Source of the DNA: Mytilus galloprovincialis
Lineage: Eukaryota > Mollusca > Bivalvia > Mytilida > Mytilidae
NCBI RefSeq assembly: GCF_965363235.1
Contig: NC_134843.1
Span: forward strand, 49,533,535-49,597,534
Direction of reading: 5' to 3'
DNA: 64,000 nt
The number at the start of each line of letters is the position of its first letter. Position 1 is the stretch's first letter. A model generated the notes under the pieces. The model made no database searches, was not told where the DNA came from, and worked only from the letters and a program-made list of their open reading frames with translations. Positions 8,754 through 64,000 of the stretch are shown piece after piece. The translations under genes were made by a program, and so were the position numbers.

Positions 8754-9386
8754 CTATTTACAGTCGGGGAAGGTTAAATTAATGCCAAGATTCCTGATGA
8801 TCATTTCTAATCCTCCCTGGAGGGTATTCAAAAAAATGTTATTTCCCAAAGACGTCAAATGCACTCCATCTTTCATTAAGAATAATTCATTAGCCTTTAT
8901 ATCAGGGTAACGGAGGTAACAACCATCTGTTTTGGTTAAAAATGATGCTATAGAGGTATTAACCCTCATTCTACATTTTTCCATGGCATTAATATTGTCA
9001 GAGTAACGCCAACTTGATCTCGGAATAATTTGAGACCAGACAAAAACTGTGTCCAACATCAGTTGACGCATCCAACTGAACTGTTTCCTTATTAGTTCAC
9101 AAAGAGTTTTTGAACTTTTTTCCCCTATATCATTGCCTCCAATATGTAAAACTAATATAGTTGGCGGATCTTCATATTTTAACATGGTTCTTATTTGTTG
9201 TTTCATGTCCAGCACTTTACCTCCACATTTTCCCTGCCACCAAATATTTACTCCCATCCTCTGCAGCCCCAAGTTTACCCCTCCCGGTCTTCTTCTGGCT
9301 TCCCCAAAGGCATGCTTAATAATCGAGGATCCAACGATCCAAACTGTAGCATGTCCTGCAATTCTTAGAAAGCAATTATTACTTGC
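8754..9386 (-). CDS. SGNH-type hydrolase domain of the Ngaro element
   Basis: An open frame of about 210 codons encoding a compact SGNH/GDSL-like esterase domain. The catalytic blocks are readable. Block I is IVGSS at 9324-9341 (the nucleophile serine in a GSS variant of GDS). Block III is HIGGND (Gly-x-Asn-Asp). Block V is DGVHLTSLGN (Asp-x-x-His). Hydrolases of this family are known from vertebrate and invertebrate Ngaro elements, and their role in the cycle is unclear. No ATG precedes block I: upstream the frame stays open only to a TAA at 9387-9389, and the first ATG (about 9257) lies after the nucleophile. A 3' splice-like sequence (ttgctttctaagaattgcag, ending at 9356) sits just before the domain, so it may be reached by splicing. 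How translation starts is unresolved. Confidence 0.75.
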   Translation of the reverse strand, partial: ASNNCFLRIAGHATVWIVGSSIIKHAFGEARRRPGGVNLGLQRMGVNIWWQGKCGGKVLDMKQQIRTMLKYEDPPTILVLHIGGNDIGEKSSKTLCELIRKQFSWMRQLMLDTVFVWSQIIPRSSWRYSDNINAMEKCRMRVNTSIASFLTKTDGCYLRYPDIKANELFLMKDGVHLTSLGNNIFLNTLQGGLEMIIRNLGINLTFPDCK

Positions 9387-9522
9387 TTATATTGATGCAG
9401 GACATACCATTTATTTACATAATACAATATTATTTAAATGCCAGCTCAAGACTGCATTACAAAATAAGCAAATATAGAAACATATTTACACAAATAAATG
9501 TACATATATGATGTTCAGGCAT

Positions 9523-10407
9523 TTAAATCCTAATGTAACGCAAAAAGGCCTGTGACTTCCAACGTCCCATTTCTTTAATTTGTTCATCAGAAATACCTTC
9601 TAATGCACATGTAGTTGCCATGCCAATTCTAAAGGAATGGGACTTAAATCCATTGTTTTCTATACCAATTACTGACAGAGACCTTTTTAATAATGCTGAA
9701 AACTGGTATCTTGTAAGGGGGGATCCATCAAAATGACAAAATAAAGGTCCCAGATAAGGTGGGCGAACTTTAATAAAATTAGCCATTATTTGTACTGGAC
9801 ATACATTTTTGTTTTTCTGCTTAGAAATAACGATTGTTGTTCCAGAACCAAACTGATCAGTTTTAGATGACGTCAATAAAACCTCTAATCTTGCATCACA
9901 AAGCTTTATATTTTCAAATTTTACAGTATGCATCTGCTTATTTTTACAATCAACTGTTATTTCACCTACTCTCATAAAACCATGAAAGGCTAGCGAAAAT
10001 GAAGCCATAAACAGTTTTGTCTCATACCCGTTTTTGCAAATCACCGCCAGTGACCTCAATAATTTTTCCAATATATCTCTCGTTATGGGTAATCTAGTGT
10101 CCTTTTGATTTGGGCCCCCCAACCTTTTTATTCCTTCAATCAATTTTCTGACAACAAATTTCTGTGTATTGTCTTCTAAATTGTTGATTTTATTAAAGTA
10201 ACTTAAGCCTGAAATATAGCCAGATACTGTTGAGTGGGACAATTTCTTTCTAAACATATAAACAATGAATGATGTCAAGTCATCAAGCGAAATAGGCCAG
10301 ACATCAGAAAAACCATGATTTTCTCTGAATTTAACAAATATGTCCATGCTATGCAAATATGCTTTCTGTGTACTGGGTGCTAATGAATTTATAAGTAAAT
10401 GATTCAT
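9523..10407 (-). CDS. Tyrosine recombinase (integrase) of the Ngaro element
   Basis: A 294-residue protein that integrates the circular DNA copy by site-specific-like recombination, replacing the DDE integrase of other LTR elements. An N-terminal SAM-like DNA-binding part covers about residues 1-105. The catalytic domain holds the full set: Arg146 (FMRVGEI), Lys182 (SSKTDQ), His257 and Arg260 (SHSFRIG), Trp283 (GRWKS) and nucleophile Tyr291 (LRYIR). The protein ends three residues after Tyr291. Its ATG overlaps the stop codon of the RT frame in an ATGA (10404-10407), so termination-reinitiation on one RNA is plausible. The start is a true ATG and the length is normal for the family. The enzyme appears intact. 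Confidence 0.93.
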   Translation of the reverse strand: MNHLLINSLAPSTQKAYLHSMDIFVKFRENHGFSDVWPISLDDLTSFIVYMFRKKLSHSTVSGYISGLSYFNKINNLEDNTQKFVVRKLIEGIKRLGGPNQKDTRLPITRDILEKLLRSLAVICKNGYETKLFMASFSLAFHGFMRVGEITVDCKNKQMHTVKFENIKLCDARLEVLLTSSKTDQFGSGTTIVISKQKNKNVCPVQIMANFIKVRPPYLGPLFCHFDGSPLTRYQFSALLKRSLSVIGIENNGFKSHSFRIGMATTCALEGISDEQIKEMGRWKSQAFLRYIRI

Positions 10408-12170
10408 TTCAGTTCTGAAATCATCGACAGGAATTCTTGTGGGATTGCTGCTGGAGAACTGTCTGCATTCGGGACCAAGTCCATAAAACGTTGTTCCTGA
10501 AATCGAGAAAGAGCATCTGCGATTGCATTATGCTCACCCTCAATATGTTGTGCCCTAAATTGTATGTTATTGTTCATAGTGAGAAAAACTAGTTGTCTTA
10601 TCAATATCATAACTCTCTTTGATTTTGATGTTCTTTTGTTCACAATGCTTACTAATGCCTGATTATCTATTCTCAACAGAATCTTTTTATTTCTAAATGA
10701 ACGACCCCATATCATGAACGACAGCACGATGGGAATAAGCTCCAAACATGTTATATCCAATAAAATGCTAGTATCAGCCCAACTACTTGGCCACTGGTAT
10801 TGTACCCAGTGACCTTGAAAATAAGCTCCACAACCTAATAAAACATTACCTGCACTATCAGTGAATAATTCCAGACTTTCATTAGTCGACCAAAATCTAT
10901 CAGGAAAATAACACTGACCATTGAATTGATCTAGAAAATTTAGCCAAACTCTAGCATCTGCTTTGACCTCTGAATTCAATCTGACAGTATAATAAGGCTT
11001 TCCATTCTTAACTGAAGCTATCAAATCGTAAAAACGACGAATAAAAGCACGGGCTGATATAATGGCCCTTGAACAAAATGCCATTAAACCAGTAATTGAT
11101 TCAAGTTCCTTCAGTGCCATTTTCTTTTTCGACAAGACCTGATCAAGCATAAATTTAAGTTTATCCAGTTTTTCAGGGGGGATTCTAACCAACATAAGTA
11201 CTGTGTCAATTTCAAGGCCTAAAAATGTGATACATGTGGTAGGACCTACTGTTTTATTCTCTGCTAGTGGAACACCTAGCTGCCTACATACTTCATTAAA
11301 AGTGTCCATCAAAATGGTACAATTATCCGTTGAACTTTCACCAGCAAAGAAAAAGTCATCCAAATAGTGGTCTAAAGTCTCAATGCCAGCTTTCAATGCA
11401 ACTGTTTTATGCAAAAAAGTGGCAAATTTTTCAAAGAGGGCACATGATATAGAACAGCCTTCAGGCAGACATTTATTAATATAATATTTCCCATCAAAGA
11501 AAATTCCCAGAAGGTCAAAATCAGCTGGGTGAACCAATAAAATTCTAAAGGCCTGACTAATGTCCATTTTTGCGCAAAGCACGTTATTTCCTAATTCAGA
11601 GATCATCCCAACCACTTTATCAAAAGAAGAATACTTTACTTTACAAATTTCTGGATCAATGAAATCATTCACACTCCAGTTTAGAGGATATGACAAGTGA
11701 GTTATAAGACGCCATCCACCGTCATTTTTTGAAACAACCCCAATAGGAGATATTCTTAAAGTTGAAATTGGTATTTTTGAAAAGGGGCCCAACATTCTAC
11801 CAAGATGCACTTCTTTTTGTAATTTTAAATTCGTTTCAGTTTTGTGAACTTCTGCCGAAATGAGATTGCTTGCAAAACTCGAGATCCTTGGACCAGTATA
11901 GTTTAATCTAAACCCCTCTATAAATCCCAATAATAACATTGCTGCATCAGTTTTGTTTTCATAATTTGACAGTAATTCTCTTAAAGATTTAATTTTGACT
12001 GGGGTTTTGCCTTTGTCCCATAAATGCTCCAGGAGAACGGAATCTTGTGTTATTTTGCATTTGCCTAGGTGCAAAGGGTTGAAAATTAGATGCTGTTTTT
12101 TGTGGTGCTTGAGGCCGGGCTGATCTGAATCTCTGAACAATCCCAGGTGACTGAGGATTATTAGAGTTAG
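10404..12170 (-). CDS. Reverse transcriptase-RNase H polyprotein of the Ngaro element
   Basis: A frame of about 588 codons. Numbering residues from the TTG at 12140, the RT begins after GRMLGPF (114-120), a mark of DIRS/Ngaro RTs. Motif A is MDISQAF with Asp193, and the catalytic box is YLDD (259-262). RNase H follows, with Asp428 (FTDSAG), Glu467 (CLELIP), Asp492 (RIDNQA) and Asp542 (ADALSR). It copies the element's RNA into DNA. The frame has no ATG upstream of the RT. It is open from 12170 and overlaps the end of gag (to 11989) in the +1 frame, so it is probably made by ribosomal frameshifting, by splicing or from a non-ATG start. It ends in an ATGA overlap with the recombinase. I see no stop or frame break. 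Confidence 0.92.
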   Translation of the reverse strand, partial: LTLIILSHLGLFRDSDQPGLKHHKKQHLIFNPLHLGKCKITQDSVLLEHLWDKGKTPVKIKSLRELLSNYENKTDAAMLLLGFIEGFRLNYTGPRISSFASNLISAEVHKTETNLKLQKEVHLGRMLGPFSKIPISTLRISPIGVVSKNDGGWRLITHLSYPLNWSVNDFIDPEICKVKYSSFDKVVGMISELGNNVLCAKMDISQAFRILLVHPADFDLLGIFFDGKYYINKCLPEGCSISCALFEKFATFLHKTVALKAGIETLDHYLDDFFFAGESSTDNCTILMDTFNEVCRQLGVPLAENKTVGPTTCITFLGLEIDTVLMLVRIPPEKLDKLKFMLDQVLSKKKMALKELESITGLMAFCSRAIISARAFIRRFYDLIASVKNGKPYYTVRLNSEVKADARVWLNFLDQFNGQCYFPDRFWSTNESLELFTDSAGNVLLGCGAYFQGHWVQYQWPSSWADTSILLDITCLELIPIVLSFMIWGRSFRNKKILLRIDNQALVSIVNKRTSKSKRVMILIRQLVFLTMNNNIQFRAQHIEGEHNAIADALSRFQEQRFMDLVPNADSSPAAIPQEFLSMISELK

Positions 12171-13083
12171 TCACTTTGCTATTAGTGCAATATATAACCG
12201 GATGTACCCCACTGCATTTTAAACAAGCATGTTTGTATGTGCAATATTGTTGGGTGCACGTCCCATTATAATTATATGCATAGCATTTAAGAAAATTGTT
12301 TGTTGGTTTTTGTGCAATATTGAACTCTGGCCCATTAATTGGACCTGCTGGTTGCATATACAATAACCATAGCTCAGTGTCTATGACAGACCAGGATCCA
12401 GCAGGCTCCTGTGATCTACGTAGTCTAAACTGTTCATCATACAATTTCCATCCTAAACCTGCATAGCGTTTAGCCCCTAACCTGACAGTTTGCATATACT
12501 TCAACAGTTCTTGGAACTGAGATGTATGTATAGTACAATAAATACTGATATATATTAAAAAGGCATCCGTCCATATACCTATTGTGTTAATTCTTGTATC
12601 CTGTTGCTTAGGTTGTAATATAATCTGTCCCTGATTAAATGTAAGTGTTTGATTCACTCCTGTTATGTTTTGTGAATTATTTAACAAACTGCCCATATCT
12701 ACATATTCCCCATTTATTACTTTTTGTTTGACATTTTGCGATACGTTTCGCGCTATGTCATCTGACGCCTTAACCGTTTCAATGGGTAAGGCATAACCTG
12801 TGTTAATTAGGGGTTGGTGTAATGTTGTATTACCTGGAGCAGGGTAAATTGTTTCTGCTGTCAGTGTTGCTGGGATCATTATTGGACTGTGTGGTAGTAC
12901 ATTAGTTGTCACTGTGTTTGAGCCGAGCTGTACAGGTGGTGTTCCACTTGTTCTAGGTAATCTATCTGCAATATTAGCAGTCGCCTCTTCCTGTTGCTGT
13001 TTCGACTTCTTTGCAGCAGCCGCTGCACCTCCATTATTTGCCCTGCTTGTCGGCACCCTTTTTCTGCCGGACCTCCTATACAT
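11989..13083 (-). CDS. Gag-like protein of the Ngaro element
   Basis: A 364-residue protein with a real ATG. The N-terminus is basic and Ala/Gln-rich (RRSGRKR; residues 1-35), and a Thr/Pro/Asn-rich linker follows. A central conserved block at about 170-222 contains WTDAFLIYIS and YDEQFR, words I associate with DIRS/Ngaro gag. A zinc-binding region at 267-299 has two cysteine/histidine arrays, C-x8-C-x4-C-x3-H and C-x2-C-x3-H-x4-C. The C-terminus is rich in Arg, Gln and Pro. It should bind the element's RNA and form particles. It overlaps the RT frame by about 180 nt in another frame. It is followed upstream by about 730 bp of leader before repeat A1. Confidence 0.87.
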   Translation of the reverse strand: MYRRSGRKRVPTSRANNGGAAAAAKKSKQQQEEATANIADRLPRTSGTPPVQLGSNTVTTNVLPHSPIMIPATLTAETIYPAPGNTTLHQPLINTGYALPIETVKASDDIARNVSQNVKQKVINGEYVDMGSLLNNSQNITGVNQTLTFNQGQIILQPKQQDTRINTIGIWTDAFLIYISIYCTIHTSQFQELLKYMQTVRLGAKRYAGLGWKLYDEQFRLRRSQEPAGSWSVIDTELWLLYMQPAGPINGPEFNIAQKPTNNFLKCYAYNYNGTCTQQYCTYKHACLKCSGVHPVIYCTNSKVTNSNNPQSPGIVQRFRSARPQAPQKTASNFQPFAPRQMQNNTRFRSPGAFMGQRQNPSQN

Positions 13084-13813
13084 GATCTGAAACTTAAAGT
13101 GTATGTGTTATCTTCATTCAAATACATGTGCTTTACCTTATATATATATATAAAATATTAAAAGTGAATATCCAAAAAACATACGTATTTCACAAATCTC
13201 TCTCCGATTATATGTCTATAGTTTGCTCTTTCGTGTTATTCTCAGGATATATAAACTAAGAATCAATTACTACTTACTAAAATGATTGTTTTGCCATTTG
13301 TGCAAATCCGAAACATACGAGTTTATCAAAGCCGGTTCCGGTTTTTATGCCCACCGTTAACCGGAAGTTTGTCATTACAAGTTTGTCAATAAATAGAGTC
13401 GAAACACTCAACTTTTTGCTCATTTTTGTCCTGTATTTAGATGAACTAAGTCATCGACTGCATCAATTTATATGCTGACAATAAGCTATTTCAAAATTTC
13501 ATTGTGAAAATATTTGGTTGATTTGAAAACCCCTTATATCACTAAAGTACGGCAATAACAGTTAAATTCCTTCACATTTTCAAATTGCATAAAAATATAA
13601 TGTCTAACACAATCTTGGTTTGATTTATTTTTGGCTGTGACCGTTTACTTAAATTCGACATTCATTTGCACATTAAATTTTTGTATGTTTTTAAATGTCG
13701 TTTTTAACTAAAATTTCAAGACATCGGGATTAAATCGATATCAATCCGTCTTTATCGTATATCAAAATAAACTTATAGCCCTTTATCAAACCTATTTCAG
13801 GTGTTATTTCAAC
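13084..13813 (-). promoter_or_regulatory. Leader region of the Ngaro element between A1 and gag
   Basis: About 730 bp of AT-rich sequence with a (TA)n tract at 13141-13151. It should hold the 5' untranslated leader and perhaps internal promoter sequence. I found no clear promoter motif. A short frame (12909-13127) overlapping gag in another phase and one at 13730-13954 are shadows. Confidence 0.5.
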
Positions 13814-44902: not shown

Positions 44903-46081
44903 TTACATATCATCGTCCTCACTGGAATTTGGACTACCGGTCAAACTAAGGTTTCCAAATGATGCTCCGGCACGCTTCAATTTTTCAAGAATTTCAGTGT
45001 TTTTACGATAATGAGACAAAAGCATTGGAGTTGTTCCATTATATAGTTTATTGTCAATGTTTGTGTCTCTTCGGGACAGCAAGTAACTGACCATTTCAGA
45101 ATTGCTTTGATCGATGGCCATATGGAGTACTGTTGCTCCACATTTACATTCTTTTGTATTTACTTGAGCTCCTTTCGAAATCAATACTTTCATAATGTTC
45201 AATTGTCCGTTGAGTGCTGATTCGTGTAAACATGTATATCCATTGGAATTTCTAATTTCAAGATTCTGTGGAACTTGTCTTACAGGAATTCTGTATTCGT
45301 TAAATTGTGTTTCACTTAGTTCAATAGGCCGCAATAAAACTGAAACCATGTCTATATCCCCAAGACGGCATGCAATATGAAGTGGCGTATCTCCATTGCT
45401 GTCCTGAATTTCAATATCGGCCCCGCCAACCATTAATCTCCGTGCTATTTCCATCTGATGAGTTAAAGCTGCCAAATGTAGGGGTGTCTGCCACATATCG
45501 CTATTTTGAATGTCTAACCAGACACACCCTGGTGCAAGCTTTATAAACTCAGATACGAGTTGTGTTTGTCGCTCTAAAATAGCAATGTTCAATAAGGTAT
45601 CACCATCCTCGTCTTTTCCATATACGACCATAGCTTCTGGCGTTACTCTGTCGGAATCGATAGAACTGCAACTAGATCCCAATGAGTCTAAAGAATTGAT
45701 TCTCATATCTCCAAGACGCTCTGAAATGTCACTGATCTGAAACTTTCCTTCAACATTGGAGGCTTTTTCGCATAAAATGTCATCTTCAATTTCCACAGAT
45801 TGAAGTGATTTGCCGATTGCACTGTCAACTGAATCTAGTCCAACACCACTGTCTTTAGGATTAAAAGAATCAAAGTTATGTGTTGATTTAGACATGCTGG
45901 AAATTTGTGTTATTTCACGTCTCAGTTCTAAGTCACTTTTAAATCCTTGTATAGAACTAGATGAATTAACTGAATTGTATGATGAATACGCAGAGTCAAA
46001 TCTTTCATCAGTTTGATGTTTTAATAATTGTTCACCATCAGTCTCGATATCTCCACCTTTATGACGACAATGAGCATCCAT
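44903..46081 (-). CDS. IkB: IkB/cactus-like NF-kB inhibitor with six ankyrin repeats
   Basis: A 392-residue protein from the ATG at 46081. It should bind Rel/NF-kB dimers in the cytoplasm and be destroyed after signalling. A Ser-rich N-terminal region (about 1-155) contains the phosphodegron DSGVGLDS at 77-84, the type read by beta-TrCP after IKK phosphorylation; a second DSAIGKS lies just after it. Six ankyrin repeats follow at about 158-375, with typical TPLHLAA and TPLHIAC cores and a longer insert after the third, as in IkB-alpha. The tail is acidic and Ser-rich (SPNSSEDDDM). The whole protein is in one exon. The frame stays open upstream to about 46217 without another ATG, so a spliced upstream start is possible, but a TATA-like box at 46234 and kB sites at 46330-46353 favour this start. 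Which vertebrate IkB it matches cannot be decided here. Confidence 0.92.
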   Translation of the reverse strand: MDAHCRHKGGDIETDGEQLLKHQTDERFDSAYSSYNSVNSSSSIQGFKSDLELRREITQISSMSKSTHNFDSFNPKDSGVGLDSVDSAIGKSLQSVEIEDDILCEKASNVEGKFQISDISERLGDMRINSLDSLGSSCSSIDSDRVTPEAMVVYGKDEDGDTLLNIAILERQTQLVSEFIKLAPGCVWLDIQNSDMWQTPLHLAALTHQMEIARRLMVGGADIEIQDSNGDTPLHIACRLGDIDMVSVLLRPIELSETQFNEYRIPVRQVPQNLEIRNSNGYTCLHESALNGQLNIMKVLISKGAQVNTKECKCGATVLHMAIDQSNSEMVSYLLSRRDTNIDNKLYNGTTPMLLSHYRKNTEILEKLKRAGASFGNLSLTGSPNSSEDDDM

Positions 46082-46233
46082 ACTTTTCTGTGTAAAATTA
46101 TATTCAAAATGTCGGACTATAACTTGTAGTTGCTTTGTGTTCACTTCTGGAACAAAATTTACTTTGTAGATAAATTGTACAACTCTCTCGATTAAATTCT
46201 GTTTGAAAACTGGTATTTACAACCGATGGAAAT

Positions 46234-53557: not shown

Positions 53558-53563
53558 TTTATT
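53558..53563 (-). terminator. Likely polyadenylation signal of the RHIM/death-domain gene
   Basis: AATAAA on the minus strand about 195 nt after the stop codon at 53758, in a suitable 3' UTR position. Confidence 0.5.
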
Positions 53564-53757: not shown

Positions 53758-54029
53758 TTAAAATCTTAAAAATCTGGACAAATCGTCTCTCCTCATTTTA
53801 TGTAAAGCATTTGATAAAACAACATTAGTTGCAGCATCTCCGTTTAGTTCTTGCCACTTTTTGACCATCTGATATGTTACTTCATGCATTCCTTCTTTTT
53901 TATAGTCCTCCACAACTTGTTCTACTGCGTTATAGGGTACTTTCAGCTGTCTCCCTAAATTACGATAGTCACCATGTATTTTTGAAGCTATTTTATCTAT
54001 TTCTAATTTTGTTGGTGGTCTTGCATTAC
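53758..54029 (-). CDS. RHIM/death-domain adaptor, last coding exon (death domain)
   Basis: A 272-bp terminal exon. It has a strong acceptor (a T-run, then acag, at 54030) and ends in TAA at 53758-53760. It encodes about 90 residues with a death domain: IASKIHGDYRNLGRQL (helices 1-2), YNAVEQVVEDY, then VTYQMVKKWQELNGDAAT (the conserved Trp in helix 5) and LSNALHKMRRDDLSRFL. Death domains join receptors and adaptors by homotypic contact. The preceding exon ends in one base of a Ser codon and this exon supplies the other two, giving PPS-NARPP in frame. The protein ends six residues after the domain, as in IMD and RIPK1. Sequence order shows adaptor or kinase-tail type rather than a receptor. Confidence 0.88.
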
Positions 54030-54896
54030 CTGTAAAAAAAATTTAAAAAATTCTAATATGAGGTCCTTTTTTCACCATTTATTAAGCTCAGGAAAAATTG
54101 TCAATAAACAATAACCAAAAGCTTCATAACTTTTCTGATAGCTTTGTCCAACCTTTGTGATTTTTGTATATTTTCCTGTTTGAACTGAATTTCTTTTTCA
54201 CATTCAGTGGTTTTTCTTTCATTTAACCATTTATCGAACTAATATTTCCATAAATGTCCTCACAGTTCCTGACAACATCAGAATAAATATAGCATATCCA
54301 ATGGTAAAATAACATTCTAAACAAGGTCTCTTTAGTTATATAGCTCCTCAAGTATTTATACATTCATATCTTTAAAAAATTTGGGTTTTAGTGATCCTGA
54401 TAAAGGTTAAACTAGAAAAGCGCTTCCAACGCACAAACTTTATAGTGTTATTTTCATATTGGAAATAAATCTAACTTGAGGCGGGGCAGGACCTTTTTCG
54501 TGACATCTGGATCTGGTGTTTTTAAGCTCGGGATTTAGGGATTGATCCTTACGAGATTTGGGAATTCTTTTTTCGGGATTTAAGTTTCCATAAATTCGGG
54601 ACCTCTGGATTTCATGTTTTTAAGCCTGGGATTTCGGGAACAGGACCCCTCCGACCCCTCCTCTTACTTATATCACATAAGAAGGTAGCACAAAGGAACC
54701 AATCAAGTGTTTAAGACTGCATGAAACGGATCATCTTACCACAAATCGATATGGTCAAAATAGAAGGAAATTTTTCCATTTTTTCTAAATTATCACAAAT
54801 ATGCAAAATAAGAATATATGGCAAAACAATAACTTTATTCCACCAATTTTCAAAACTAAAAAAAAAATGTTTTGAATTCAATTTATTCATACTTAC
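54030..54896 (-). other. Intron between the RHIM and death-domain exons
   Basis: An 867-bp phase-1 intron, gtaagt...cag. I see no gene in it. The frames at 54711-54974 and 54721-54924 overlap the exon or intron by chance. Confidence 0.8.
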
Positions 54897-55058
54897 TAGG
54901 TGGTTGATATGTTTTATCATATGAGCTATCTGGCATATAATCATCATCATCGCTGTCATCAAAATGGCGACCAATGTGCATTACATTCTTGTCTCCCACT
55001 TGCATGTTGGGTACTTTTGCACTTTTACCAAAAAACAGTTTAGTTAGTCCTCCAAATA
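54897..55058 (-). CDS. RHIM/death-domain adaptor, internal exon with RHIM-like motif
   Basis: A 162-bp exon, acceptor ttcatcttattttag at 55059, donor gtaagt at 54896. It encodes 53 full codons, including MQVGDKNVMHIG (55014 down to about 54979). This fits the RHIM core (V/I-Q-V/I/L-G-x-x-N-x-hydrophobic), the motif through which RIPK1, RIPK3 and TRIF, and in cryptic form fly IMD and PGRPs, build amyloid-like signalling fibres. An acidic stretch (DDSDDDD) follows. The motif lies about 45 residues before the death domain, the same order as in IMD and RIPK1. The upstream exon ends in G and this exon begins TA, forming a Val codon. Whether the full gene is an IMD-like adaptor or a RIPK1-like kinase depends on 5' exons outside or not found in the window. 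Confidence 0.83.
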
Positions 55059-55192
55059 CTAAAATAAGATGAACATAAAATTCTGAGGTCATTGTTATAA
55101 TCATAGTAGTTTGTTTGTTTTAAACTATGGATCTTTGCAAGGTTTTGAATCAACATTTATTTTTTTATAACATTAAGATGCAGGGGTCTTAA

Positions 55193-55875
55193 AGGGGCAC
55201 TAGCTGTCAAATTCATTGTAACCGATTTGACTCAAATTCTCATATTTGGTTTATAACAATGTAAAACATTTATCCAAACTATCAAAAGTCTAAAATAAAC
55301 AGTATACAGAGCATGGGGTAGATAATATATAGGTTCGTTTTGTGTGTATTTTAGTCCAGACGCCATCTAATTAACTATCGATTTGACCTCAGATGACCAT
55401 ATAAGCGATGTAAACAAAAATAAAGATACGAATAGATTAAACCAACACGTGCAATTGCATTTTTATAGGTCTGTTTGATTTTATTTTATAGATTAAAAAT
55501 AGATGTTTCTCATTGTTTTAACCATATAAGAATGATTTTATGTGCATCGAATTAGTAATCAAATGATTTACCGTAGTTTCACTTTCATTGTTGACATTCT
55601 TTTTCTTTAAATAACCAGTACACGTACAATGCATGCGTTGTCAATCTCTAGCTAGGGGTTAACTTGAAGTTCACATGAATACCGGTTAGAATGATGATGA
55701 CGTTTTCACTTGCAAGTGAATCCGTCAAAAATTATGTTTAATCGCTTATTTCAACAAAATTAAAGGAAATTGATTGCTAAAAGCAAATTATTATTTCATT
55801 ATTCCAATTTGATTAATGATTGATCCAAAAAAAATCATACTTTATTTTTTTATATATATCGTAGCTAGTGCCCCT
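55193..55875. mobile_element. TTAA-flanked inverted-repeat element in an intron
   Basis: A 683-bp element with ends 'aggggcactagct' and 'agctagtgcccct', each flanked by TTAA (55189-55192 and 55876-55879). TTAA duplication with short inverted ends is the mark of piggyBac-type elements and their MITEs. No transposase is present. It lies in the long intron of the RHIM/death-domain gene. Confidence 0.85.
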
Positions 55876-56072
55876 TTAATATTATGACCTATACTATTTG
55901 TCTCAAATGGTCCGAGTACACAGTTATCGTCCTTTGATTTTCGTTGTCCACGAATATAGTCCTTAGTGTGGACAGTGTGTTACTTGCCAATTTTTATTGT
56001 ACCCTTCCAAATTTATTTCTCCATGTTTTATGCCTCATATAGGAAGTTGGGGGGTGAAATGACACTGTAAAA

Positions 56073-57273
56073 CTAGAGGCTCTAAAGAGCCTGTGTCGCT
56101 CACCTTGGTCTATGTGAATATTTAACAGTACTTTCTGTGGAAAATGTTATTGAAAATCTTCAAATTTTAAGAAAATTGTTAAAAATTGACTATGAAGGGC
56201 AATAACTCCTTAGGGGGTCAATTGACTATTATGGTCATAGTGACTTATTTTTAGTTCTTACTTTGCTGTACATTATTGCTGTTTACAGTTTATCTCTATC
56301 TATAATAATATTCAAGATAACAAAAAAACAGCAAAATTTCCTCAAAATTACCAATTCAGGGGCAGCAACCTATCAACTGATTATCTGATTCATCTGAAAA
56401 TTCCAGGGCAGATAGATCGTGACCTGATCAACAATTTTACTTCCTGTCAGATTTGCTCTTAATGCTTTGGTTTTTGAGTTAAAAGCCAAAAACTGCATTT
56501 TACCCCCATGTTCTATTTTTAGCCATGGTGGCCATCTTGGTTTGTTGGCCGAGTTACCGGACACATTTTTTAAACTAGATACCCCAATGATGATTATGGC
56601 CAAGTTTGGTTAAATTTGGCCCAGTAGTTTCAGAGGAGAAGATTTTTCTAAAAGATTACTAAGATTTACGAAAAATGGTTAAAAATTGACTATAAAGGGC
56701 AATAACTCCTAAAGTGGTCAACTGACCATTTTGGTCATGTTAACTTATTTGTAGATCTTACTTTGCTGAACATTATTGCTGTTTACAGTTTATCTCTATC
56801 TATAATAATATTCAAGATAATAACCAAAAACAGCAAAATTTCCTTAAAATTACCATTTCAGGGGCAGCAACCCAACAACGAAATGTCCGATTCATCTGAA
56901 AATTTCAGGGCAGATAGATCTTAACCTGATAAACAATATTACCCCATGTCAGATTTGCTCTAAATTCTTTGGTTTTTGAGTTATAAGCCAAAAACTGCAT
57001 TTTACCCCTATGTTCTATTTTTAGCCATGGCGGCCATCTTGGTTGGTTGGCCGGGTCATCGGACACAATTTTTAAACTAGATACCCCAATGATGATTGTG
57101 GCCAAGTTTGGTAAAAATTGGCCCAGTAGTTTCAGAGGAGAAGATTTTTGTAAAAGCTAACGACGGACGACGACGACGACGACGACGACGACGGACGACG
57201 GACGCCGGACGCCGGACGCCGGACGCCAAGTGATGGGAAAAGCTCACTTGGCCCTTTGGGCCAGGTGAGCTAA
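56073..57273. mobile_element. Hairpin-ended repeat with internal duplication and ACG microsatellite
   Basis: The left end has the palindrome 'aggctctaaagagcct' followed by 'gtcgctcacctt'. The right end is the hairpin 'agctcacttggccc ttt gggccaggtgagct' (57239-57271). Inside, a unit of about 500 bp occurs twice (about 56150-56650 and 56651-57150) with 'ttaaaaattgacta', 'gggcaataactcct' and 'tttacagtttatctctatc' in each. An (ACG)n tract with CCGG variants is at 57159-57229. I recall this as a frequent bivalve repeat of unclear class. The frames 56373-56603 and 56905-57105 are the two copies read through. Confidence 0.78.
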
Positions 57274-57929
57274 AAATGATTTCAAGACCCCCTTAACATA
57301 AAATTGTCCATATTTTGAGTTAGAGCCTGAGGTTAGAGCTGATGAAGTTTTCTATAATTTTGATATAATTTGTCCCAAAAGTAGTACAACACACTGTAAA
57401 AATATTATTGAGAAAGGGCAGGTGGGATTTTTTTAATTTTCATTTATTGTCTAAAAGAATTGCACTACAAAATAACTGTGTACTCGGACCAAATGGCTAT
57501 CAAATTTGAACTTTGAAATTTGAAATTGTAGAAATAATGGTAATTCTAAAGAGTAAGACATCACTTTTTTGTCTGGCTCTTGTAGTAATAGTGTCTTGAA
57601 CTTCCAAAAAACTATGTTAACCTATGGGAATATCACTACAGACCTTGTCTATAATTTGAATACACTTCAGAAACTACTACTACAGGTTACAGGTCAGGTT
57701 TTGTAAAAAATCAGAAAAAGGGAAAGTCTGGATATTTGATTGACATGACTTTCATAAGACATAGACTGCCAAGCCCAGATCAGTTTCTCTCAGACCTGAG
57801 CACTTTAGTGGTTTTTGTGGTGTCTTGGACAACTTTTTGATTTTTTTGTGTTGCCATCTTGTCAATGTTAAATATATCTCCTATTCTACATGCATTAAAT
57901 TTGGAATTCTCCAATGTGCTTAGAATTAC
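57274..57929 (-). other. Intron sequence before the RHIM exon
   Basis: The start of a 2.87-kb phase-1 intron (55059-57929) that begins gtaatt and ends ttttag. Apart from the two elements described above I see nothing coding. 'tgtactcggaccaaatgg' near 57478 is the complement of 'ccatttggtccgagtaca', which resembles 55904-55922, so a diffuse repeat lies on both sides of the mobile elements. Confidence 0.6.
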
Positions 57930-58026
57930 CTCCAGAACTTTTATGCTCAATTTCCACTGAGCCATCTGTACTGGTGGATAACTTTGGTGTACTTTCACTT
58001 GAAGAGCCTTTGGCATCAGTCTCTAA
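57930..58026 (-). CDS. RHIM/death-domain adaptor, internal exon
   Basis: A 97-bp exon, acceptor ttttatag at 58027, donor gtaatt at 57929. It encodes 32 codons, Ser/Thr-rich (LETDAKGSSSESTPKLSTST and following), with one base left over that joins the RHIM exon in frame. It is probably a disordered linker. It is supported mainly by the agreement of phases on both sides (phase 0 in, phase 1 out). Confidence 0.72.
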
Positions 58027-58198
58027 CTATAAAACAGACAGCATAATACTAAATAATTTAATTTTGGATGTAAAGCGTCTTCTGATTGGCTGACGTTATT
58101 TTGTTATCAGCCCATAGACATAATTTAGTCCTGTGACCGTGACGTCATCAACGTTTTTCATGGTTTTCTACGGTTTAAAATGGAATTTAGAATTAAAT

Positions 58199-58360
58199 TA
58201 TAGGAAATGACTGTAATATTTTTTCTGTCTATTCGTAATAACATAAAAAATATGGTGCACACTGTTAAATAACCCGCTACGTGCTTTATTCAGTGTGCAC
58301 CAAATTTTTTGTTATTTCTTCATAGACTGAAAAAATATTACAGTCATTCCTTAAGTGAGA
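58199..58360. repeat. Long inverted repeat (hairpin) in an intron
   Basis: The left arm 58199-58264 ('ggaaatgactgtaatatttt' onward to 'tggtgcacactg') and right arm about 58290-58360 are complementary with mismatches around a loop of about 25 nt. 'cgtgacgtcatcaacg' lies just outside the left arm. It may be the end structure of a non-autonomous DNA element. Confidence 0.75.
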
Positions 58361-58748
58361 AAGGTCATTTTAAAGATCCAAAATTGGATAGCAATAATAT
58401 CTGTTGAAAAATAAACTTAATTAAGAAATGGAAAAATATGGGTTTGTATAAAAAAAAATTATATTGTTTTTGTTCCTGAGTGTTTTTAATGTTGTGTCAA
58501 TCAGAATCAATGATAGTTTTCGATCAAAGTCAGTATGATCAATTCTTATTTCTTATTTTTTTCACACTTCAAACATTGTAAGTTTTGAAGAAACAAACAA
58601 TGCAATTTATGGTTTTAACGGTATGTTTCTTGAATACATGTTTATTGTTGTTTAATTGTTTTTAAACAATTTCTAACCAAAAGCGAGTTCCTTGCCAGCT
58701 TAACAAAACAATTATAATACTAGTTAAAAACCTTATAAGCAATCTTAC

Positions 58749-58905
58749 ATCAGATTTGGATTTTTTAGGGTCTGGTGGGTTTGACGGTCCTTTTTCTCCA
58801 GATTTAACAGAGATATCTGGTATGGACCCTGAAGCATCTGTTTCTAAATCTGACTGGGTTTTTGTTGCCATAGGCTTTGAGGATGTAGGACTACTGCTTG
58901 ATTTT
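58749..58905 (-). CDS. RHIM/death-domain adaptor, most 5' exon found
   Basis: A 157-bp exon, acceptor tttttctttcag at 58906 with a long pyrimidine tract, donor gtaaga at 58748. It encodes one base plus 52 codons, Ser/Pro/Lys-rich (SPTSSKPMATKTQSDLETDA and onward), and ends in phase 0, which fits the next exon. It contains an ATG (MATKTQ), but the strong acceptor and open frame before it suggest the protein starts in an earlier exon. Low-complexity sequence here resembles the linker before the RHIM in RIPK1 and IMD. I found no convincing exon between 58906 and 64000. Confidence 0.72.
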
Positions 58906-63588: not shown

Positions 63589-64000
63589 GTTTTGGGTCCA
63601 TCATTTCTGTACGGTACTCTTTAAAATTTGCTTACTTTTCTCTATTCTTCATTTATTTTGCTCATTATTATCTATTCTTTATAATTTATCACCAAAGTCT
63701 TTAATTATATTTTGTTTATTTTTCTCTATTCTTTATTTTTTTTGGTCATTTACTCTACCGTATTTACCCAACCCAGACCCCAATATATGGAATATTGTTT
63801 CCTATGCATCACAAAAAAACACATTATAAAATTGAAAGTGCTTAATGTTTTCAATCTTTAATGTAATAATCTATATTTGTATCTTAAATTTTAAAATACC
63901 AGGACATGAGAAATCGGATATACATGTACTTATGTGACAGGTTTAATGTCTACGGTACACCAGTAATAGTATATATATAAAATAGAAAGGATGTACAGGC
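63589..64000. other. Gene-free right edge of the window
   Basis: Includes a pyrimidine-rich tract (about 63630-63750) with repeated 'tctattctttat' words. No gene is seen. If the RHIM/death-domain gene is long, this may be intron. Confidence 0.5.

Follow-up and report, generated by a model that had tools for sequence, protein, structure and literature searches.

Gene structure at the locus

The window, a 64,000-nucleotide stretch of Mytilus galloprovincialis DNA corresponding to C6:49533535-49597534, was analyzed together with the surrounding genome (1.385 Gb, 331 contigs), and positions past its end are given in an extended numbering that runs beyond 64000 (genome position = 49533534 + number). 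Four coding exons lie on its minus strand (exons 13–16; Table 1), and re-reading of the sequence together with codon scoring bore out the coordinates, splice sites and phases that the initial annotation had assigned to them. The exons have GT-AG borders and fitting phases and join in a single frame to encode 228 residues and a stop codon; in each of the four, this frame is the sole stop-free one, the final stop excepted. Codon scores, trained only on a separate window ORF (44906-46216), were reached by 0/687, 0/2,368, 2/648 and 0/150 non-coding stop-free stretches of equal length for exons 13, 14, 15 and 16, respectively, the 2/648 belonging to the exon that carries the RHIM-like motif. In an exon search, the three internal window exons scored 20.8-42.6 and the acceptor at position 58905 was strong, whereas the best of 35 candidates further upstream within the window scored 4.0; as none of these was credible, the 5′ exons were sought outside the window.

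Table 1. Features of the two genes; contig C6 positions are in window numbering, extended past 64000 for exons 1–12, unless a contig is given.
Feature	Position	Strand	Content	Basis or remarks
Exons 1-6	90257-90091, 88796-88496, 87826-87613, 86777-86631, 86023-85926, 84946-84304	-		sequence reading, phase-matched
Exons 7-12	82568-82373, 81518-81432, 80924-80698, 80308-80112, 79550-79423, 79275-79195	-	linker	exon scoring, phase-matched
Coding exon 13/16	58749..58905	-	Ser/Pro-rich linker	length 157; 1 base completes codon at start, ends phase 0; acceptor TTTTTTTCTTTCAG, donor GTAAGATT
Coding exon 14/16	57930..58026	-	Ser/Thr-rich linker	length 97
Coding exon 15/16	54897..55058	-	RHIM-like motif and acidic stretch	length 162
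RHIM-like core	54970..55005	-	MQVGDKNVMHIG	core scoring; its 19-mer starts at 55026
Coding exon 16/16, last	53758..54029	-	death domain and stop codon	length 272
Death domain, Pfam PF00531 match	53770..54003 (C6:49587304-49587537)	-		genome profile search, E 2.9e-7
Poly(A) signal	53558..53563	-	AATAAA	starts at 53563, ~200 bases 3′ of stop
C13 gene, five exons	C13: 58755675-58755737, 58757306-58757417, 58760103-58760336, 58761548-58761625, 58762781-58762980	+		phase-matched

Several other features occupy the window. The minus-strand ORF at 44903-46216 is intron-free and encodes 437 amino acids with ankyrin repeats; its best PDB matches are ankyrins and designed repeats, IkB-alpha matches at 2.4e-35 in a single stretch (residues 203-424), and the ORF may represent an IkB-like gene located ~7 kb from the RIPK1-type gene on the same strand. 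A minus-strand retroelement at 8754-13107 contains ORFs for a tyrosine recombinase, a reverse transcriptase and a GDSL-like hydrolase in a row and is presumably of the DIRS/Ngaro kind. Two repeats are located in introns: an inverted repeat at ~58215-58345, with ~55 bases per arm, which is MITE-like by eye, and a repeat beginning AGCTCACCTGGCCCAAAGGGCCAAGTGAGC at ~56080-57275 in the RHIM intron, which has two related internal halves and resembles text in a kinase intron (L011 5160-5670).

The C-terminal death domain

The death domain proposed in the initial annotation was recovered by profile search, as Pfam PF00531 matched the four-exon protein at E 1.8e-9 (38 bits; cut-off 22.6) and the 1,057-aa joined protein described below at E 8.4e-9. 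Its nearest solved relatives in a PDB sequence search are the death domains of RIPK1 (1.2e-7 to 1e-6), followed by weaker matches to THO complex subunit 1 (0.038), TRADD (0.08) and FADD (0.19); both Pfam and PDB thus place a RIPK1-type death domain at the C-terminus. A single-sequence AlphaFold prediction of the death-domain exon alone gave six helices at low confidence (pLDDT 50.6), too weak for a fold search. When the C-terminal protein was compared with the whole genome, the C6 locus was the only strong one, with 4/7 matches, the others having E values of 0.03-1.6. Death-domain matches at E ≤ 0.001 number at least 104 across the genome (150/217 candidates scored), many of them clustered on contigs C11, C12, C6 and C8. 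A death-domain scan of collections of viral contigs and genome contigs yielded 8 and 40 pattern matches, respectively, none of which was confirmed.

Kinase exons upstream of the window

The analysis was extended to the 60 kb past position 64000, and the first 40 kb of this stretch was scanned with Pfam on the minus strand. Kinase matches were identified inside C6:49617535-49627534 on the minus strand, and the corresponding RIP-family kinase exons (C6:49620165-49623791) lie ~28-31 kb upstream of exon 13 on the same strand; the question raised initially, whether a kinase domain is encoded upstream, is thus answered in the affirmative, beyond the window. The exon containing the ATG carries the glycine loop GRGGFGTV and VAVK, and HLDLKADN and DFG are found in the exons after it. 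Exon 5 is weak (score 5.9). The six linker exons (exons 7–12) are the best six non-overlapping candidates in the 25-kb gap at 58906-84303, exon 12 being barely ahead of the next candidate (9.5 vs 8.8). The codon table used in this gap search is not an independent control for the kinase and window exons, which supplied part of its training set. The large intron also contains, on the minus strand of C6:49597535-49607534, a match to DUF3737 (E 8.1e-15) that is split into four stretches.

These 12 exons chain in phase with the four window exons, giving 16 exons and one open frame of 1,057 codons with the domain order kinase, ~650-aa linker, RHIM-like motif and death domain; the linker of human RIPK1, in contrast, is ~250 aa long. 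Pfam PK_Tyr_Ser-Thr matched the joined protein at 3.8e-46, and the N-terminal domain is a RIP-family kinase, as in RIPK1: among 2,347 matches, the best 32 of the 60 PDB entries listed belong without exception to RIPK3, RIPK1, RIPK2 or RIPK4 (2.5e-40 to 2.8e-34), and the first non-RIPK kinase among the matches listed is EGFR (3.5e-31). The kinase alone cannot separate RIPK1 (3.5e-40) from RIPK3 (2.5e-40); it is the death domain that makes this distinction.

The two parts of the gene are presumably joined across a 20-kb junction (79195 to 58905). No good gene end or start was identified in 58906-79194 (terminal exons ≤8.9 and initial exons ≤6.3, vs 30.6 for the true last exon), and one gene across the kinase and window exons therefore appears to be the simplest model. 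An arrangement of two genes, in which a RIP-type kinase gene ends near 79195 and a separate kinase-less, IMD-like adaptor with RHIM and death domain starts upstream of or within exon 13, would account for an intron of 20 kb and for the weakness of the gap exon nearest the break (79195-79275), and exon 13 does contain an ATG, from which a protein of ~217 aa would be made. We nevertheless consider this arrangement improbable, because the phases match across the gap, the acceptor of exon 13 is strong, the gap lacks a good terminal or initial exon, a RIPK1-type kinase and a RIPK1-type death domain lie on the same strand in RIPK1 order, and the bivalve homolog in print is described as one protein (PMC12119088).

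The RHIM-like core

Across all six frames, the window contains 37,484 stop-free 19-mers, and each was scored against the RHIM sequences of human RIPK1, mouse RIPK1 and human RIPK3, two of these three references being confirmed in PDB. On the 13 core positions, MQVGDKNVMHIG ranked first (30.0, vs 18.3 for the next), and its score was reached by 0/2,000 shuffles of the joined protein; on all 19 positions, it scored 22.7, below repeat copies elsewhere in the window (23.7-28.3), and 1/2,000 shuffles reached this value. When the window is read in all six frames, the pattern [IVML]Q[IVLC]G..N.[MLIV] appears a single time, and 1/20,000 shuffles of the joined protein contained it. By eye, 6/12 core residues are identical to those of human RIPK1, which, together with the window-best core score, agrees with the earlier view that the core is nearer to the vertebrate form.

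The pairing of RHIM and death domain proposed for these exons is firm as regards the RIPK1-type death domain and is favored by the core score, but the RHIM half is weakened by the silence of Pfam and by a tetrad that begins with M. Pfam RHIM (PF12721) reported nothing on the protein at E ≤ 1, the core is absent from the matches of a whole-genome PF12721 search at E ≤ 10, and no RIPK was among the PDB matches when the RHIM region served as the sole query. The tetrad reads MQVG, in which 3/4 positions fit (V/I)-Q-(V/I)-G, and the flank upstream of the core differs from that of RIPK1. We therefore call the stretch RHIM-like, its main support being its position before a RIPK1-type death domain. 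The silent Pfam model, the M at position 1 and the divergent flank could also mean that the resemblance is fortuitous and that the protein is a kinase–death-domain protein without amyloid function; we consider this unlikely, given that the core far outscores the next in the window, directly precedes the death domain as in RIPK1, and has the same core score as a second gene described below (30.0 each). Lamprey RIPK1a, described as having IQIG and yet a RHIM that escapes domain tools (PMC7179693), provides a precedent for a RHIM overlooked by models. A pseudogene or a set of chance exons is very unlikely in view of an open frame of 1,057 codons across 16 exons and of coding scores trained on an independent ORF.

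A second gene with a RHIM-type motif and a death domain

The whole-genome Pfam RHIM search gave 7 matches at E ≤ 10, the best with E 1.78 and none significant alone. The match at C13:58760186 was followed up because the same strand carries, 2.6 kb downstream, a death-domain exon that matches the window protein at C13:58762810 (E 0.55). Five exons (Table 1) encode 228 aa comprising a short N-terminus, IQIGNNNTMIIN (an IQIGNNN RHIM), a death domain and a stop; the start is uncertain, as a second-exon ATG has a marginally better score (17.8 vs 15.8). The C13 protein matched Pfam Death at E 2.2e-10 and Pfam RHIM at 0.033, below the cut-off, and its best PDB matches are RIPK1 (2.4e-7) and then FADD (4.6e-6); its identity to the C6 protein is 29% over 181 residues. 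Among the remaining matches, C5:90415872 (IQIGKNNCLIYI) and C9:28895980 (VQIGHNNGL) were rejected as chance, since neither has coding context or resembles the C6 or C13 protein, and the other four showed stops or no core in translation.

A tblastn search with the C6 kinase found no kinase in C13:58730001-58770000, a stretch that includes 30 kb upstream, and the C13 gene, judged from its sequence, appears to have the IMD layout, i.e., a short, kinase-less protein with a RHIM-type motif and a death domain. Its N-terminus contains IESD|SLPY, a stretch that by look alone is similar to the site at which insect IMD is cut by a caspase and to its IAP-binding motif. According to a 2023 paper, neither molluscs nor brachiopods had yielded an Imd adaptor; the same paper presents a nemertean Imd as the first from a spiralian, for which a death domain, and no RHIM, is described (PMC9835746). 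No earlier report of a molluscan IMD was seen in the openly accessible papers searched.

Relation to known systems and proposed function

The window exons very probably belong to a bivalve RIPK1-type gene, of which they form the 3′ end and whose product would signal via RHIM and death domain. RIPK1 with kinase, RHIM tetrad and death domain has been described in zebra mussel, Lingula, other spiralians and lancelets (PMC12119088), and oyster RIPK1 annotations exist (PMC8917759); the C6 gene adds to these RIPK1 genes already reported in other shellfish. An older survey, in which RHIM arose in vertebrates (PMC9573974), is contradicted by the former paper, of 2025. As judged from published descriptions, the C6 gene shares with zebra mussel RIPK1 (XP_052232845.1) and the spiralian and lancelet homologs a kinase, a long linker, a RHIM-like motif and a C-terminal death domain, in that order, and differs from them in its tetrad, MQVG rather than (V/I)Q(V/I)G. 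Like RIPK3, it combines a RIP kinase with a RHIM-type motif, and unlike RIPK3, described as lacking a death domain (PMC7179693), it has one. It resembles insect IMD in that a RHIM-type motif precedes the death domain and, by analogy, may act in an NF-kB pathway; IMD, however, is a short adaptor with no kinase, whereas the C6 gene has kinase exons upstream in phase. A RIPK1-type reading of the window gene is therefore preferred to an IMD one, and the IMD layout fits the C13 gene instead.

In the proposed mechanism, a death-domain receptor or a FADD-like adaptor upstream would recruit the C6 protein via its death domain, and the RHIM would then stack, either with further copies of itself or with a different RHIM protein, into a short cross-beta polymer. 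This stacking would bring the kinase and the long, disordered-looking linker together in a platform activating IKK/NF-kB, and the same platform could lead to cell death through FADD/caspase-8. The initial annotation had suggested an adaptor feeding NF-kB or cell death: with a RIP kinase upstream in phase, a full RIPK1-type kinase is a better reading than an adaptor, and the NF-kB part is made likely by the zebra mussel work, in which the RIPK1 C-terminus is reported to activate NF-kB in HEK293T cells and RHIM mutation to attenuate or prevent this (PMC12119088). Necroptosis through MLKL is an unlikely output because MLKL is reported as not detected in Mollusca (PMC11476962); NF-kB activation and caspase-8-type death are more likely.

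With its complete gene model, the C6 gene would enlarge the small set of RIPK1 homologs from outside the vertebrates, in a group reported to lack MLKL, and bears on the role of RIPK1 before necroptosis. The most interesting outcome seems to be the occurrence of the C6 and C13 genes in one genome. It is conceivable, though we put it forward only tentatively, that this animal keeps a RIPK1-type kinase (C6) and an IMD-type adaptor (C13) as RHIM partners in one NF-kB platform, and that an early bilaterian had both, arthropods having lost the kinase and vertebrates the adaptor. If so, cleavage of the C13 protein at IESD|SLPY by a caspase-8-type caspase would leave an IAP-binding end exposed, in parallel with insect IMD. 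Through the C6 and C13 genes, a single animal would allow a test of the long-standing question of whether a common RHIM–death-domain signalling pair gave rise to insect IMD and vertebrate RIPK1.
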